Made by a program: the position numbers and the translations under genes
DNA from: Chloroflexota bacterium
GTDB taxonomy: Bacteria > Chloroflexota > UBA11872
Direction: 5' to 3'
Assembly (NCBI GenBank): GCA_022824865.1
Contig: JAJDZD010000053.1
Span: forward strand, 1-64,000
DNA: 64,000 nucleotides
Part shown: positions 24,558 to 30,975 of the stretch, in pieces
Layout of the letters: every line of letters begins with the position of its first letter
How positions within the stretch are numbered: position 1 is the stretch's first letter
Notes under the pieces: model-generated
Told to the model about the DNA's origin: nothing
The model's database searches: none
Seen by the model: only the letters and a program-made list of their open reading frames with translations

Positions 24558-24622
24558 GTCAGTGGTTGGGCGCTGCCAGTGGCATTCGTGCCGAAGCCGA
24601 AACGGGGCCTGGCGTCAGCGCC

Positions 24623-24838
24623 TCAGCGACGCAGCCGCCCTTTGCCGTCGCACTTCGGGCACTTCCCGCTCAACTCGTGCCAACCGCCGGGCTTGGACGG
24701 ATCCGGCCAGCGCTCATTGACCGCTCCGGTTCCCTCGCAGCGCGTGCAGATAGGTCCGGTCGGCGGCAGGATGCGCGGCAACAGCAACACCGCCGCCACC
24801 ACCAGCGCCGTGAAGATGATCCACACTTCAAGTGGCAT
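24623..24838 (-). CDS. small membrane protein with DnaJ-type zinc motifs
   Basis: The product is 71 aa from ATG 24838, with AGAGGT 6 nt upstream. An N-terminal helix (about VWIIFTALVVAAVLLLP) anchors it. The C-terminal part has two CxxCxGxG motifs, CTRCEGTG and CPKCDGKG, which together make one DnaJ-like zinc-binding hairpin. Such motifs bind zinc and often unfolded polypeptides. A longer in-frame reading upstream is antisense to dnaE and is not used. It could serve as a membrane-tethered chaperone or redox adaptor; this is inference. Confidence 0.65.
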   Translation of the reverse strand: MPLEVWIIFTALVVAAVLLLPRILPPTGPICTRCEGTGAVNERWPDPSKPGGWHELSGKCPKCDGKGRLRR

Positions 24839-24912
24839 ACCGACCTCTGCGCTTCGGCGCCCCTCGCTCGCCCCGCCAGTATAGGCAGCCGCCCCTCGCG
24901 GCCACCGGTCGG

Positions 24913-24942
24913 TTGTCCGAATCTCCGGCCGAATCCTAGAAT
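24913..24942 (+). promoter_or_regulatory. promoter of dnaE (TTGTCC-18-TAGAAT)
   Basis: -35 TTGTCC (24913-24918), 18-bp spacer, -10 TAGAAT (24937-24942). GAGGAG at 24955-24960 lies 7 nt before the TTG start at 24968, giving a leader of about 20 nt. Confidence 0.55.
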
Positions 24943-24967
24943 CGGCCATCACTTGAGGAGCGCACGT

Positions 24968-27900
24968 TTGGCCGGATTCGCCCACCTCCACGTCCACAGC
25001 GAATTCAGCCTGCTCGACGGCTTCTGCCGAATCCCGGACCTCATCGAGCGCACTGCCGCGCTCGGCATGGACTCGGTCGCGATCACCGACCACGGCGCCA
25101 TGTACGCCGCCGCCGACTTCTACCTGGCGGCCCGCGAGAAGGGCGTCCGCCCCATCATCGGCTGCGAGGTATACGTCGCTCCGCGCTCCCACACCGACCG
25201 CGACCCCGCGCTGGACCGCCGCTCCTTCCACCTCACCCTGCTTGCTCGCAACCTCACCGGCTATCGCAACCTGGTGCGCCTGGTCTCGCGTGCCAGCCTG
25301 CACGGCTTCTACTACAAGCCGCGCGTGGACCGTGAACTCCTGGCGGCCCACGCCGAGGGCCTGATCTGCCTCTCCGGCTGCCCGTCGAGCGAACTGTCGC
25401 GTGCGGTCTCCTCCGGCAACCTGGCCCGCGCCGAAGAGGTGGCCCGCTGGCACGCCGACACGTTCGGTCCGGAGAACTACTACCTCGAGATCCAGCGCCC
25501 GGGACTGCCCGACCAGGAACCCTTGGCGCAGGGGATCATCGAGTTGGCTGGCGGCCTGGGCCTACCGCTGGTCGCCTCCAACGACGTCCACTACCTCACG
25601 CCCGACGACAAGGACGCCCACGACATCCTGCTCTGCATTCAGACGGGCAGCTTGGTGGCCGACACCGACCGCATGCGCATGGAAGGCGAGTGGCACCTCA
25701 AGTCACCCGAGGAGATGGCCCAGGCTTTCGACGATCAACCTGACGCCCTGGCCAATACCGTGACCATTGCCGAGCGCTGCGATCTCGACCTCCCCTTCGG
25801 TCGGATCGCCATGCCCTCGGTCGAAGTCCCGAATGGACACACGGTCAAATCACACCTCGCCGAACTGGCCACCCAGGGCTTGGCCCGTCGCATCCCGAAT
25901 GCCGACGCCAGGTACCACGAACGCCTGGCCTACGAACTCGACGTCATCGACCAGACCGACTTTGGCGAGTACCTGCTGCTGGTGCGCGAAATCTTCGCCT
26001 TCGCACGAGACCAGGGCATGTTGACCGCTCCGCGCGGCTCCGTGAATGGCAGCCTGGTCGCCTTCGCCACCGATATGTCGGATATCGACCCGGTCAAGCA
26101 CGACATCATCTTCGAGCGGTTCCTCACCATCGGCCGCAAGGGCTCCATGCCCGACGTGGACATGGACTTCCCAAGCGACCGGCGCGACGAAGTCATCGAA
26201 TACATGATCCGGCGCTTCGGCTCGGACCACGTGGCCCAGATCGTCACCTTCGGAACACTGGCCGCCCGCGCCGCCGTACGCGATGTGGGCCGCGTCCTCG
26301 GCATGGAATACGGCCTGACCGACCGCGTGGCCAAGCTCATTCCGGTCAATCCCGTCGACCCCTACACCATCGGCCGTTCGCTGGACGAGGTCGAAGAGCT
26401 CAAGAGCCTCTACCAGCAGGACGACGCCGTCCGCCGGCTGCTGGACTCGGCGCGCCGGATCGAAGGCGTGGCCCGTCACGCGTCCACCCACGCGGCCGGG
26501 CTTGTGGTGTCGCGGGATCCCCTGCAGGAACACGTGCCGCTCACGCGCTCCGCCGAAGGCCGGCCGGTCGCGCAGTTCACCTTCCAGACCATAGAGAAAA
26601 TCGGCCTGCTGCAACTGGACGTGCTGGGTCTTTCGAACTTCCGCACCATCCAGCACGCCCTGCGGCTGGTGGAGCAGGCCACCGGCCGGGCGCTGGCGCC
26701 CCAGGACATCCCGTTGGACGACGACAAGGCCTTCGCCCTGCTGCGGCGCGGCCGCACGATTGGCGTCTTCCAGATGGAGGGCGCCGGAATGACGCGCACG
26801 CTGCGCGAACTTGCGCCCACCAGCATCGGCGAAGTAGCCGCCATCATCGCGCTCTACCGCCCGGGGCCGATGGCCAACATCCCCACCTACATCGACCGCA
26901 AGCACGGCCGCTCCGCCCCCGAATACCTCCACGAACGACTCGAGCCGATCCTCCGCGAAACCTACGGTGTGCTCGTCTACGCCGACCAGGTGCTCATGAT
27001 CGCCCGTCACCTGGCCGGCTATTCCTGGGACGAAGCCGACAACTTCCGCCGGGCCGTCGGCAAGAAGATCCGTGAAGCCTTGCAAAGCGAACACGAGAAA
27101 TTCGTGGCGCGGAGCGTGCAGGAAGGGATTCCGAACAAAGTCGCCGAGGAGATCTTCGCGCTGATCGAGCCGTTCGCCGGCTACGGATTCAACAAGGCCC
27201 ACGCCGTCTCGTACGCCGTCATCGCCTACTGGACCGCCTGGCTCAAGGCTCACTACCCGGTGCAGTTCCTCACGGCGCTGCTGGACACCGACGCCGGCGA
27301 CGTTGGCAAGGTCGCCAGCACGCGCCTGGAGGCCGAACTGCTCGGCGTCAACGTCCTGCCGCCCAACATCAACCAGAGCGGCGTGACGTTCGAGCCAAGC
27401 GGCGACTCGATCGTGTTTGGGCTGGCGGCCGTCAAGAACGTGGGTGAAGCCGCCGTCGAAGCCATCGCGGCGGCGCGGCAGGAGGAGGGCCCATTCAGTT
27501 CACTGGCCGACGCCTGCGAGCGCGTCGATCTGCGCCGAGCCCCCAAACGCGCCTGGGAGTCGCTGATCAAGGTCGGCGCCCTGGATGAACTTGGTGAACG
27601 CCAGGCCATGCTGGAAGCGCTTGAACCCGCCATGAAGCGTGGTCAACGCACTCAGACGGACCGGGCCGCAGGGCAGACGACCATGTTTGGCATCGGGCTG
27701 CTGCCGGAATCGACTGAGCCGGCGCTGGAACTTCCCGACGTGCCGGCGGCCGCCGAGGCCGAGCGCCGCCGCTGGGAGAAGGAACTGCTGGGTCTGTACG
27801 TAACGCCCAGCCCCCTCTCCGACCCGGCCATCGGCGAGCAACTCGCCGCCAACGTCGACGCCCGCATCTACGAGTTGGAGGACACCCATCACGGCCAGAC

Positions 27901-28852
27901 GATGACGATCGGCGGGATCGTCTCCAATCTGCGCTCCTTCATGACCCGCAAGGGTCAGATGATGGGCGCGGTCACCCTGGAGGATCTGCCGGGCGCCATC
28001 GAGGTGATCTGCTTCCCCCGCATCTGGCAGCGCATTTCGCCAGAACTCAGTAACGACAGCGTGGTTCTGGCTACTGGACGTATTGAGGGCGACGATGCCT
28101 CCCCCAGGATGCTGGCTGACAACTTGTTCCCGTTGTCGGCCGCCTCATCGAATGGCGAGGCGGCGGCACCGATGCCCGGCGACACCCAGGCCTTGACCGG
28201 ACAGCCCAATAACGAAGACGGCCCGCCGATGCCCGGCGAAGACGAATCGTCAACCGATTTCTATATCCCGGAACCTGTACCTGAACCCGAGGACGTTCTC
28301 GCGGCCGACGATGACGCGCCGTCTCCCACGACCGGCGCGTCTGAAGTTTCCGCTGAATACGAGCCGGAAGCGCCGCCCGACCAGAACGGCGTCGAGCCCG
28401 CGACCACAGCCGCTAACGGGTCCAGTTCACCTGCCCCAGCCGACCCACCGGAACAGCCCACGCCCAGCGGCACCGCGAACGGAACGGATAGCGTCGTCGC
28501 GCCCAGCGCACCCGGCGACGGTCCGCGCGGCCCATCCAACGGAACAGCGAACGGCGCGCCACCGGAGCAAGAAGCTGACGAGCCTGTTCCTGCGGCGCCC
28601 GCCGCCCCGCCCCCCTCGCTCGTGATCGTCACGCTCCGCCGCAGCCCCGACCCCAGCTTCGATCTCGACCTGCTCAAGCGCCTGAACGCCGCCGTCACCT
28701 CAAACGAAGGCCCAACGCCCCTGCAGCTCAACATCGTCAAAACCGACGGCTCCACGGCCCGCCTCCGCTGGCCCAATACCGTCCAGCCCGACGAATCACT
28801 CCTCGGCGAACTCGGCGCCCAATTCGGCAAGGACAGCGTCGCCGTTACGTAA
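24968..28852 (+). CDS. dnaE: DNA polymerase III subunit alpha
   Basis: The 1294-aa product is the replicative polymerase. The start is TTG 24968, chosen because GAGGAG lies 7 nt upstream and the conserved FAHLHVHSEFSLLDG begins three codons later. The PHP domain occupies 1 to about 205 (HLHVHSEFS, AITDHG). The palm acidic motif PDVDMDF is at 395-401. FNKAHAVSYAVIAYWTA lies near 740 and the OB-fold near 978 (MTIGGIVSNLRSF). A Pro/Glu/Thr/Asn-rich disordered linker of about 155 residues (~1057-1214) separates the OB-fold from the C-terminal tau-binding-like domain. This linker explains the extra length over the usual ~1150. Confidence 0.95.
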   Translation: MAGFAHLHVHSEFSLLDGFCRIPDLIERTAALGMDSVAITDHGAMYAAADFYLAAREKGVRPIIGCEVYVAPRSHTDRDPALDRRSFHLTLLARNLTGYRNLVRLVSRASLHGFYYKPRVDRELLAAHAEGLICLSGCPSSELSRAVSSGNLARAEEVARWHADTFGPENYYLEIQRPGLPDQEPLAQGIIELAGGLGLPLVASNDVHYLTPDDKDAHDILLCIQTGSLVADTDRMRMEGEWHLKSPEEMAQAFDDQPDALANTVTIAERCDLDLPFGRIAMPSVEVPNGHTVKSHLAELATQGLARRIPNADARYHERLAYELDVIDQTDFGEYLLLVREIFAFARDQGMLTAPRGSVNGSLVAFATDMSDIDPVKHDIIFERFLTIGRKGSMPDVDMDFPSDRRDEVIEYMIRRFGSDHVAQIVTFGTLAARAAVRDVGRVLGMEYGLTDRVAKLIPVNPVDPYTIGRSLDEVEELKSLYQQDDAVRRLLDSARRIEGVARHASTHAAGLVVSRDPLQEHVPLTRSAEGRPVAQFTFQTIEKIGLLQLDVLGLSNFRTIQHALRLVEQATGRALAPQDIPLDDDKAFALLRRGRTIGVFQMEGAGMTRTLRELAPTSIGEVAAIIALYRPGPMANIPTYIDRKHGRSAPEYLHERLEPILRETYGVLVYADQVLMIARHLAGYSWDEADNFRRAVGKKIREALQSEHEKFVARSVQEGIPNKVAEEIFALIEPFAGYGFNKAHAVSYAVIAYWTAWLKAHYPVQFLTALLDTDAGDVGKVASTRLEAELLGVNVLPPNINQSGVTFEPSGDSIVFGLAAVKNVGEAAVEAIAAARQEEGPFSSLADACERVDLRRAPKRAWESLIKVGALDELGERQAMLEALEPAMKRGQRTQTDRAAGQTTMFGIGLLPESTEPALELPDVPAAAEAERRRWEKELLGLYVTPSPLSDPAIGEQLAANVDARIYELEDTHHGQTMTIGGIVSNLRSFMTRKGQMMGAVTLEDLPGAIEVICFPRIWQRISPELSNDSVVLATGRIEGDDASPRMLADNLFPLSAASSNGEAAAPMPGDTQALTGQPNNEDGPPMPGEDESSTDFYIPEPVPEPEDVLAADDDAPSPTTGASEVSAEYEPEAPPDQNGVEPATTAANGSSSPAPADPPEQPTPSGTANGTDSVVAPSAPGDGPRGPSNGTANGAPPEQEADEPVPAAPAAPPPSLVIVTLRRSPDPSFDLDLLKRLNAAVTSNEGPTPLQLNIVKTDGSTARLRWPNTVQPDESLLGELGAQFGKDSVAVT

Positions 28853-28905: not shown

Positions 28906-29726
28906 TCAGTTGCGTGTACTCCACAGAGCGCGACACCCCTCGGTAAATCCCTTGCGTGCCCGCCGCACGGCGTCATCGCTTGGTGGATTCCATTTCGAGG
29001 CCATGGCTTCGACACGCCTCACAAGTTCAGCGTCGAGTGCTCGCGGCGTCCACCTGAAGCGGATGACCGATCGCAAAACCACCTGTCGCTCGAATCCCGG
29101 AAGGACAGCGACATACCTAAGCGCAAACTGCCGGCCATACTCATAGGGGTCGTCGGCTGAGATTTCTATGGTGGCGAGGGGCGGCTTTGAGAATGGCGTC
29201 CAGAAGTGAGGGCGCAATACCTCTTGGTCAATTAACAGAAGCTGATCCGCCTCCATGACGAGCAGATCTGACAAATTAGAGCCCATCACCGGTTCAAACC
29301 CCAGCAAGACGACCTCAATCCCAAGATCCTGAGCCTCCCGGACCCCTTCGCGCAGGTCCTCGTCGCCACCTAGCAGAAACGCGGTCGAGATCGCTCCGCG
29401 TCCTGCCAGGACCATAAGGTCGCGAACGATCAGCGAATCGACTCCCTTCTGCTGCCCCGCGACCAGCCGCCCCATTCGAAGCTTTACGCGAGGAAGAAAG
29501 CCGATGGCCTCGTGGTCCGCTGTGTTTCGCTCAGCGCCGTCGTACCAGTACGTCCGTAGCCAGGATCCGTGACCGCCCAATACGCGCTCATTGCAGAACC
29601 GCGACAGCGCTGGAACTAAGGCCTCGGCATCAAGAAACTGCGATGTTCGGTCGCCGACGCCGAGACAGGTGAGGCCGCCCTGTAGAGATATCCCGCATCC
29701 ACGAACACGCAGTAGCGGCCGACCAT
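28906..29726 (-). pseudogene. NYN-domain (LabA/DUF88-like) nuclease gene with a frameshift
   Basis: The NYN domain is split between two frames. The first 30 codons from ATG 29726 read MVGRYCVFVDAGYLYRAASP, with the catalytic-type VDAGYL, and continue to EHRSF; that frame hits TAG at 29618-29616. The rest of the domain follows in another frame from CTT 29634: LDAEALVPALSRFC, RTYWYDGA, QQKGVDSLIVRDLMVLA, FLLGGDEDLREGV. One missing base near 29633 would explain it. Either the gene is broken, the base was lost in sequencing, or frameshifting occurs. NYN proteins are predicted RNases. The upstream leader carries a terminator-like hairpin. Confidence 0.72.
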
Positions 29727-29736
29727 GAACCCCAAG

Positions 29737-29761
29737 AAAAAGGGGCTCCAGCAGGAGCCCC
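29737..29761 (-). terminator. intrinsic terminator or attenuator in the NYN gene leader
   Basis: On the minus strand, GGGGCTCC-tgct-GGAGCCCC (29761-29742) is followed at once by TTTTT, ending about 10 nt before ATG 29726. An 8-bp GC stem with a tetraloop and T-run is a textbook intrinsic terminator. It sits between a possible promoter (TATATC near 29815) and the start codon, so attenuation is possible. It may alternatively end transcription of the aldo/keto reductase gene upstream. Confidence 0.6.
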
Positions 29762-29891
29762 AAATCTGCCCCTCGATCGGGACTGAACCAACAACCCCTC
29801 AACCGGGGTGGATATATTGTCTGACGCGAATCAACTCGCGGCAAAGACCTGCAAAGTGAGACTGAGCGCCTAGCGGCTATGCCTGCGGCTG

Positions 29892-30827
29892 CTAGAACCA
29901 GTCGTTCGGAAACTCCACCGGCGACACGATGTCTCGGAAGTTGCTGAACTCCTCCGCCACGCGCAGCGCTGCCACGTCAGCGTGCAGTTCCTCAATCGTC
30001 GTCGGCCCAATCACGTTGACGTCGATGTCCGGACAGGCCAGCGAATAGGCCAGGGCTGCCGTCTGCAGGGTCAGACTATGAGCTTGGGCCCGCTCTTCCA
30101 TGTCGCGAACTTCGTTCAGCACCTCGGGCGAGGCCTCGCGGTAGCTGTAACGTGCGCCCTGCACCGCGCCGGTGCCGAGGATGTTCCCTCCAAACGGGCT
30201 GATGTTGATGACGCCCAGGTTGTACTGCCGCGCGTGCGGGTGAATACGCCGCGCCGCGTCCTGGTTGAGCAGGGTGTAATGGTGGTACGAGCCGATGATG
30301 TCGAATTCGCCGCTCTCGGCCGCCATGGCGGCGAAGTCCGCGTTCCCCACCGCCGTGCCGATCGCGCCCACCAATCCCTCGGCCTGCAGGCGCCGCAACG
30401 CGGCCAGCATGCCGTTCGGGGCCATGATTTGGTCCCAGTGATCGGGCCGGGCGTCATGCACCTTGAGCACCGGCAGATGCTCCAGCCCCAACTCCTCCAG
30501 GCTGTCATGCACGCTCCGCACCGCGCGGTCGGGACCGAAGTCGTACTCAATCCCGTCGTCACCCATGTACCGCCCGATCTTGGTGACGATCAGCAAATCG
30601 TCCGGCGGATCGGACTCCTTGAGCCGTTCCACCAGCCATCCCTGTGCATACGAAGGTGCGGTATCCACGTGCCGGATGCCCAGTCGGAAGGCTTCGCGCA
30701 ACAACTCGACGTACGCCTCGTCGCCCACCCTGCCGATCCAGTTGGCCGAACCGAGCGCCAACTTCGTGGACCGCACGCCTGAGCGCCCCAGTGTCACGGG
30801 CGGAACCTGCGGAAGGTCGGATGCCAT
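29892..30827 (-). CDS. aldo/keto reductase
   Basis: The product is 311 aa from ATG 30827, chosen because GGAGG is 9 nt upstream; an ATG 9 nt earlier abuts that GGAGG. Active-site segments of the NADPH-dependent TIM-barrel family are present: HVDTAPSYAQG (Asp, Tyr), VTKIGRY (Lys) and LKVHDAR (His). The C-terminal NVIGPTTIEEL is the usual NADPH-phosphate binding region. The subgroup resembles D-threo-aldose dehydrogenase-like enzymes. It is divergent from the SMP-30 gene, and the two may act on the same sugar or lactone substrates. Confidence 0.88.
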   Translation of the reverse strand: MASDLPQVPPVTLGRSGVRSTKLALGSANWIGRVGDEAYVELLREAFRLGIRHVDTAPSYAQGWLVERLKESDPPDDLLIVTKIGRYMGDDGIEYDFGPDRAVRSVHDSLEELGLEHLPVLKVHDARPDHWDQIMAPNGMLAALRRLQAEGLVGAIGTAVGNADFAAMAAESGEFDIIGSYHHYTLLNQDAARRIHPHARQYNLGVINISPFGGNILGTGAVQGARYSYREASPEVLNEVRDMEERAQAHSLTLQTAALAYSLACPDIDVNVIGPTTIEELHADVAALRVAEEFSNFRDIVSPVEFPNDWF

Positions 30828-30975
30828 AGCAGTCATCCTCCAGCGCTAGCGCCGGTCTCATCGTGCGCCTGCGCCAGATTTGCCGCAACCCGCGACCCTC
30901 CCGAAGGGCCGGCAGCCGACCTGCGAATCGGGCAATATCAGTTCCAGCTACACCCCGACCCTTGGAGCCCGCGCC

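Follow-up and report, generated by a model that had tools for sequence, protein, structure and literature searches.

NYN domain ribonucleases (PF01936; PIN-like fold) and the gene analysed here, which lies on the minus strand of a 64,000-nt stretch of a Chloroflexota genome (hereafter the window), are alike in their Pfam match and conserved acidic residues, whereas the present gene encodes a C-terminal extension of its own, has no NCBIfam match and is broken in the window. In the CRISPR-associated NYN RNase of Bacteroides fragilis, the exchange D13A abolished RNA cleavage (PMC11346440). The likeness to this enzyme lies in the NYN RNase type and in the essential N-terminal Asp, D13 being the equivalent of Asp10 here; the neighbours, in contrast, are dnaE and an aldo/keto reductase gene, and the homologues are found in prophages and plasmids.

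Upstream of the gene, the arrangement recalls the autoregulatory or attenuating leaders of RNases, such as rncO of RNase III (RF00552), in that a structured leader separates the promoter from the RNase start, but the match to rncO is weak (15.9 bits, cutoff 43) and lies on the opposite strand. The order of promoter, structured RNA, terminator-like hairpin and RNase gene is likewise that of type III toxin-antitoxin systems (ToxIN type); these differ in that an NYN domain stands here in place of a ToxN-type nuclease and in that no tandem RNA repeats were seen in the leaders read, i.e. those of prophages and plasmids consist of one 5' stem-loop and one terminal hairpin, and those of the Chloroflexi hold up to two short similar hairpins. 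Prophage morons are comparable to those homologues that have a promoter-like site of their own and either are flanked by the lambda-type tail genes L/K and I or adjoin a tail gene. The window copy, in contrast, is chromosomal; its two neighbours are of housekeeping type, and no phage genes were seen around it.

ORF calls and translations bear out the initial annotation in that the NYN gene is split across two adjacent frames of the minus strand and has its 5' coordinate at 29726 (Table 1). The ATG at this position opens MVGRYCVFVDAGYLYRAA... and is followed, after 36 codons, by a stop at 29616-29618. The kind and the place of the lesion have to be corrected, however. It had been described as a single-base frameshift with the two frames joining near 29633, but the main-frame peptide GGLTCLGVGDRTSQFLDAE matches the orthologues already from 29676, which rules out a one-base lesion at 29633. 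The frame switch thus falls within 29675-29680, some 45 nt further upstream, and it is here that the orthologues carry four more bases.

Table 1. Features of the split NYN gene, its leader and its neighbours (window coordinates)
Feature	Position	Strand	Basis or remark
5' NYN gene fragment, 36 codons, MVGRYCVFVDAGYLYRAASPV...*	29616..29726	-	ORF and translation
Remaining NYN gene, adjacent frame, stop at 28906-28908	28906..29676	-	ORF, orthologue matches, Pfam
Asp10 codon (VDAGY), predicted first catalytic Asp, in the 5' fragment only	29697..29699	-	Invariant in alignments A3/A6
Lesion GGGCGG, relatives with one further GGGC period; 4-bp deletion, frame shifted	29675..29680	-	DNA alignments
Terminator-like leader hairpin GGGGCTCC-TGCT-GGAGCCCC, then TTTTTCTT; 15 nt before ATG	29742..29761	-	Conserved in homologues
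Second leader hairpin GTCCC-GATCGA-GGGGC	29768..29783	-	Covaries in relatives
First leader hairpin ACCCC-GGTTGA-GGGGT	29794..29809	-	Leader alignment
Promoter-like site: -35 TTGCCG 29839-29844, N17, -10 GACAAT 29816-29821	29816..29844	-	Relatives TTGACN
Upstream neighbour, aldo/keto reductase-like (akr)	29892..30836	-	Insertion flank; named by sequence resemblance, by eye
Convergent downstream neighbour, dnaE-like (DNA polymerase III alpha)	24566..28852	+	Other flank; named by resemblance, by eye; start codon uncertain

In the aligned 5' ends, the relatives G001 and G004 read CAGGGCGGGCGGCC and the window reads CAGGGCGGCC, i.e. the GGGC tandem repeat (2.5 copies) just past the VDAGYLY motif is one period shorter in the window. 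The DNA alignment with five orthologues places a 4-nt gap in the window alone, and blastn against both near relatives returned the same 4-bp gap, placed after 29676 or 29680. The comparison with orthologues, which the initial annotation had proposed as a check, shows five uninterrupted single-frame genes (G001, G004, G006, G012 and G018) that are 64-96 % identical and have the additional four bases; the main-frame peptide from 29676 is matched from its first residues in G001 (96 % identity), G004 (94 %), G006 (71 %) and G018 (67 %), and from residue 3 in G012 (64 %). Over the 16.6 kb that align between the window and G001 (93.6 % identity, four gaps), this gap alone both has a length other than a multiple of three and falls clearly within a conserved gene; only one genome carries the deletion.

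The window fragment still matches the Pfam NYN family PF01936 (E 3.4e-7, 31.3 bits), as does the intact orthologue L004 (E 8.2e-10, 39.8 bits; curated cutoff 24.2 in both cases). Acidic residues are conserved among the NYN homologues in VDAGY, KGVD, RD and GGDED. While the orthologues hold the complete set within one polypeptide, Asp10 of the window copy falls into the 36-codon piece and the others into the other frame. Since the piece that begins with the ATG ends after 36 codons and holds the catalytic Asp of VDAGYLY, neither piece, as predicted from its sequence, is a complete enzyme. The main frame has no ATG, GTG or TTG near the motif that could restore the N-terminus, its first start codon being the TTG at 29844. 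Neither the window protein nor two orthologues matched any NCBIfam or PADLOC model; PADLOC gave weak, sub-threshold HEC-09 matches on relatives (E 0.013-0.021), and a PDB profile search gave weak matches only, to two chains that bear the label dihydrofolate reductase (E 0.0025 and 0.0068). Scans of the window for tRNA, tmRNA and Rfam families returned zero matches. The broken gene is not the sole NYN-like gene of its genome: a second, distantly related match (G000:C53:4644-4982; L022) is of a type present in most members of the genus.

We consider it probable, at about 85 %, that the locus holds an accessory gene for an NYN-domain ribonuclease which was inactivated recently, a dispensable cassette that yields no active enzyme after a slippage deletion. 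Replication-slippage deletions usually take the form of the loss of exactly one tandem-repeat period. Here, slippage would have removed one GGGC period; the missing 4 bp put everything that follows them into the adjacent frame, and active enzyme would no longer be made. Such a loss would be tolerated since the cassette can be dispensed with, its likely role being that of an expendable defence gene or of mobile-element cargo. That the lesion might be recent had already been suggested, and it agrees with the five open orthologues, the clean downstream frame and the low dN/dS of the latter (about 0.15 between the window and G001, and about 0.22 between the window and G004). Nonsynonymous changes number 8 on the window branch, 3 on that of G001 and 8 on that of G004. 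The deletion is probably recent, since the downstream frame still looks selected and the nonsynonymous count of the window branch is not above that of G004. Where the window has TTGCCG as its -35 box, each of the six Chloroflexi relatives (G001, G004, G006, G012, G018 and G002) has TTGAC(G/T/A), which supports decay as a second change; taken alone, the -35 change is no proof of lost expression.

Alternatively, the gene could be intact in the organism and the draft could have lost four bases through an assembly or consensus error. The genome is indeed a draft of 80 contigs with a completeness of 91.93 %, probably a metagenome-assembled genome like its named relatives, and the remaining frame is clean and still looks selected. 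We nevertheless regard such an error as unlikely: what is missing amounts to a single period in a tandem repeat of 10 nt, which is far below read or k-mer length, so that a collapse is not expected; the gap stands alone in the G001 alignment as a frame-breaking change clearly inside a conserved gene; and the promoter difference is found in the same NYN gene.

Two further readings would leave the gene functional as it stands, and both appear highly improbable. Programmed -1 ribosomal frameshifting, which had been raised in the initial annotation, would join both frames, and it fits the frame relation of -1 and the conserved sequence kept in both pieces. The same annotation had seen no classical slippery heptamer at the site, and this holds for the whole overlap from the ATG at 29726 to the stop at 29616, which contains zero slippery heptamers or homopolymers of at least 4 nt. 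Overlapping frames occur at this site in none of the five orthologues, and what sets the window apart is a contracted repeat rather than a signal that the relatives share. Programmed frameshifting is therefore hardly to be expected, because a slippery site is absent and no relative shifts. Under the other reading, a truncated main-frame ORF, begun at a non-canonical or upstream start, would yield a protein that functions although its NYN fold lacks the first strand; in its favour, this frame stays open as far upstream as the TTG at 29844, and dN/dS is still low. Such a product would be deprived, however, of the invariant Asp of VDAG, the equivalent of which is required in the NYN RNase studied (PMC11346440), and this TTG coincides with the beginning of the -35 box and precedes the predicted transcript. 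The preferred reading of the broken gene is thus that of an ordinary slippage pseudogene, which is worth noting mainly as a correction, since it is not a recoding candidate.

Within the genus, the NYN gene is accessory and forms an insert of about 1 kb that has akr on one side and dnaE on the other. The gene or a remnant of it occupies this site in 6 of 13 genomes, while akr and dnaE are directly adjacent and the NYN gene is absent in the other 7. One remnant (L036:9960-10203), in the one-contig genome G002, has kept the leader, a VDAGCLY-like start and the C-terminus and has lost the NYN domain between them, a gutting that is best read as having happened independently. In G018, the NYN gene is intact and has a Fic gene for a neighbour; two ORFs near it (L035:10276-14788) resemble phage terminase and portal by eye and are without a Pfam match.

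In our opinion, the leader matters more than the broken gene, as it represents a compact association of an uncatalogued structured RNA with a mobile RNase gene family, spanning the Chloroflexi, rhizobial plasmids and lambda-type prophages. Leaders of the Chloroflexi combine a promoter-like site with one or two short hairpins; these are followed by a terminator-like hairpin that carries a T-run and, in the relatives, ends 10-21 nt ahead of the start. In seven of these leaders, the three stems are paired in 94.6 % of cells, with six pairs changed on both sides, values that shuffles hardly ever reach. The hairpin as a plain terminator of akr is disfavoured, as it accompanies the NYN gene in G018, on plasmids and in prophages despite other neighbours. 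By inspection, and outside the 31 homologues scored below, the leader hairpin is absent from the more distant Chloroflexi homologues G043, G073, G244, G404, G421 and G447 and seems to be present in G160; a MAFFT alignment including G160 misplaced it and was left unused.

A hairpin of this type is also found in front of homologues with about 39-45 % identity on Sinorhizobium and Azospirillum plasmids and precedes 18 of 19 homologues on viral contigs. The viral and plasmid element consists of a 5' stem-loop, a CATAC linker and the hairpin AAGGG(Y)(Y)CC/GG(R)(R)CCCTT. Covariation of both stems was seen in a set of 21 leaders drawn from plasmids, a phage record and viral contigs, where 89.8 % of cells are paired and 10 pairs have changed on both sides; 0 of 500 shuffles scored as high. 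When a hairpin was scored as at least 8 pairs ending 8-30 nt before the start, 28 of 31 homologues had one, the 28 not being independent as the homologues are interrelated, compared with 12 of 643 control ORFs of at least 100 aa from the same loci, a conservative comparison as some NYN genes are included among the controls. The pattern of linker and hairpin was found in 15 viral contigs, all 15 of which were already known as NYN carriers. The distance from the -10 box to the start is 73-117 nt in nearly all leaders, with several promoter scores individually no better than those of shuffles. Homologous leaders are those of loci L003-L007, L036, L060, L062-L065, L072 and L078-L096. Neither the window nor the leaders at 11 homologue loci matched an Rfam family at its gathering score; L096 alone gave two matches, C4 and isrK, both of them downstream of the NYN gene. 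A literature search with a limited set of terms did not find a description of the element.

Taken together, NYN genes with the VDAGY(L/F) motif have a predicted promoter-driven leader whose last element, a covarying hairpin, lies 10-25 nt ahead of the start; the leader may serve autoregulation or attenuation. It is tempting to speculate, at even odds, that the VDAGY(L/F) NYN ribonucleases are autonomous cargo cassettes in which a leader RNA built of a 5' stem-loop, a CATAC linker and an AAGGG-type terminal hairpin controls its own RNase. Control would be exerted by self-cleavage, by attenuation that is relieved upon infection or through neutralisation of the RNase by the RNA, and the whole would belong to a defence or superinfection-exclusion system. 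Judging from sequence, a role of the cassette in defence may be proposed.

The settings of the homologues outside the Chloroflexi point to mobile elements. On the lambda-type prophage contigs L101, L108 and L110, the cassette lies between the tail genes L/K and I (Pfam PF05100, PF00877, PF06805), and in L073 it lies just after a tail gene (PF11836); all four show what is typical of a moron, i.e. a promoter-like site of their own and a place between phage structural genes, in contrast to the window copy between akr and dnaE. A similar moron-like placement among lambda-type tail genes, with its own promoter-like site, was observed in L103. In E. coli genomes, no DNA match was found to two of the prophage cassettes, L096 and L087. 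In Sinorhizobium, the NYN cassette adjoins a RES/Xre toxin-antitoxin pair, which on two symbiotic plasmids comes immediately after the NYN gene (L062:3465-4549 and L064:3444-4529). The placement in prophages and plasmids is, as far as gene order indicates, that of morons and plasmid cargo. On one of the plasmids (NC_000914.2; L064:2501-2711), the VDAGYLF motif of the NGR234 NYN gene precedes the annotated start by about 200 nt; this start is probably set too late.
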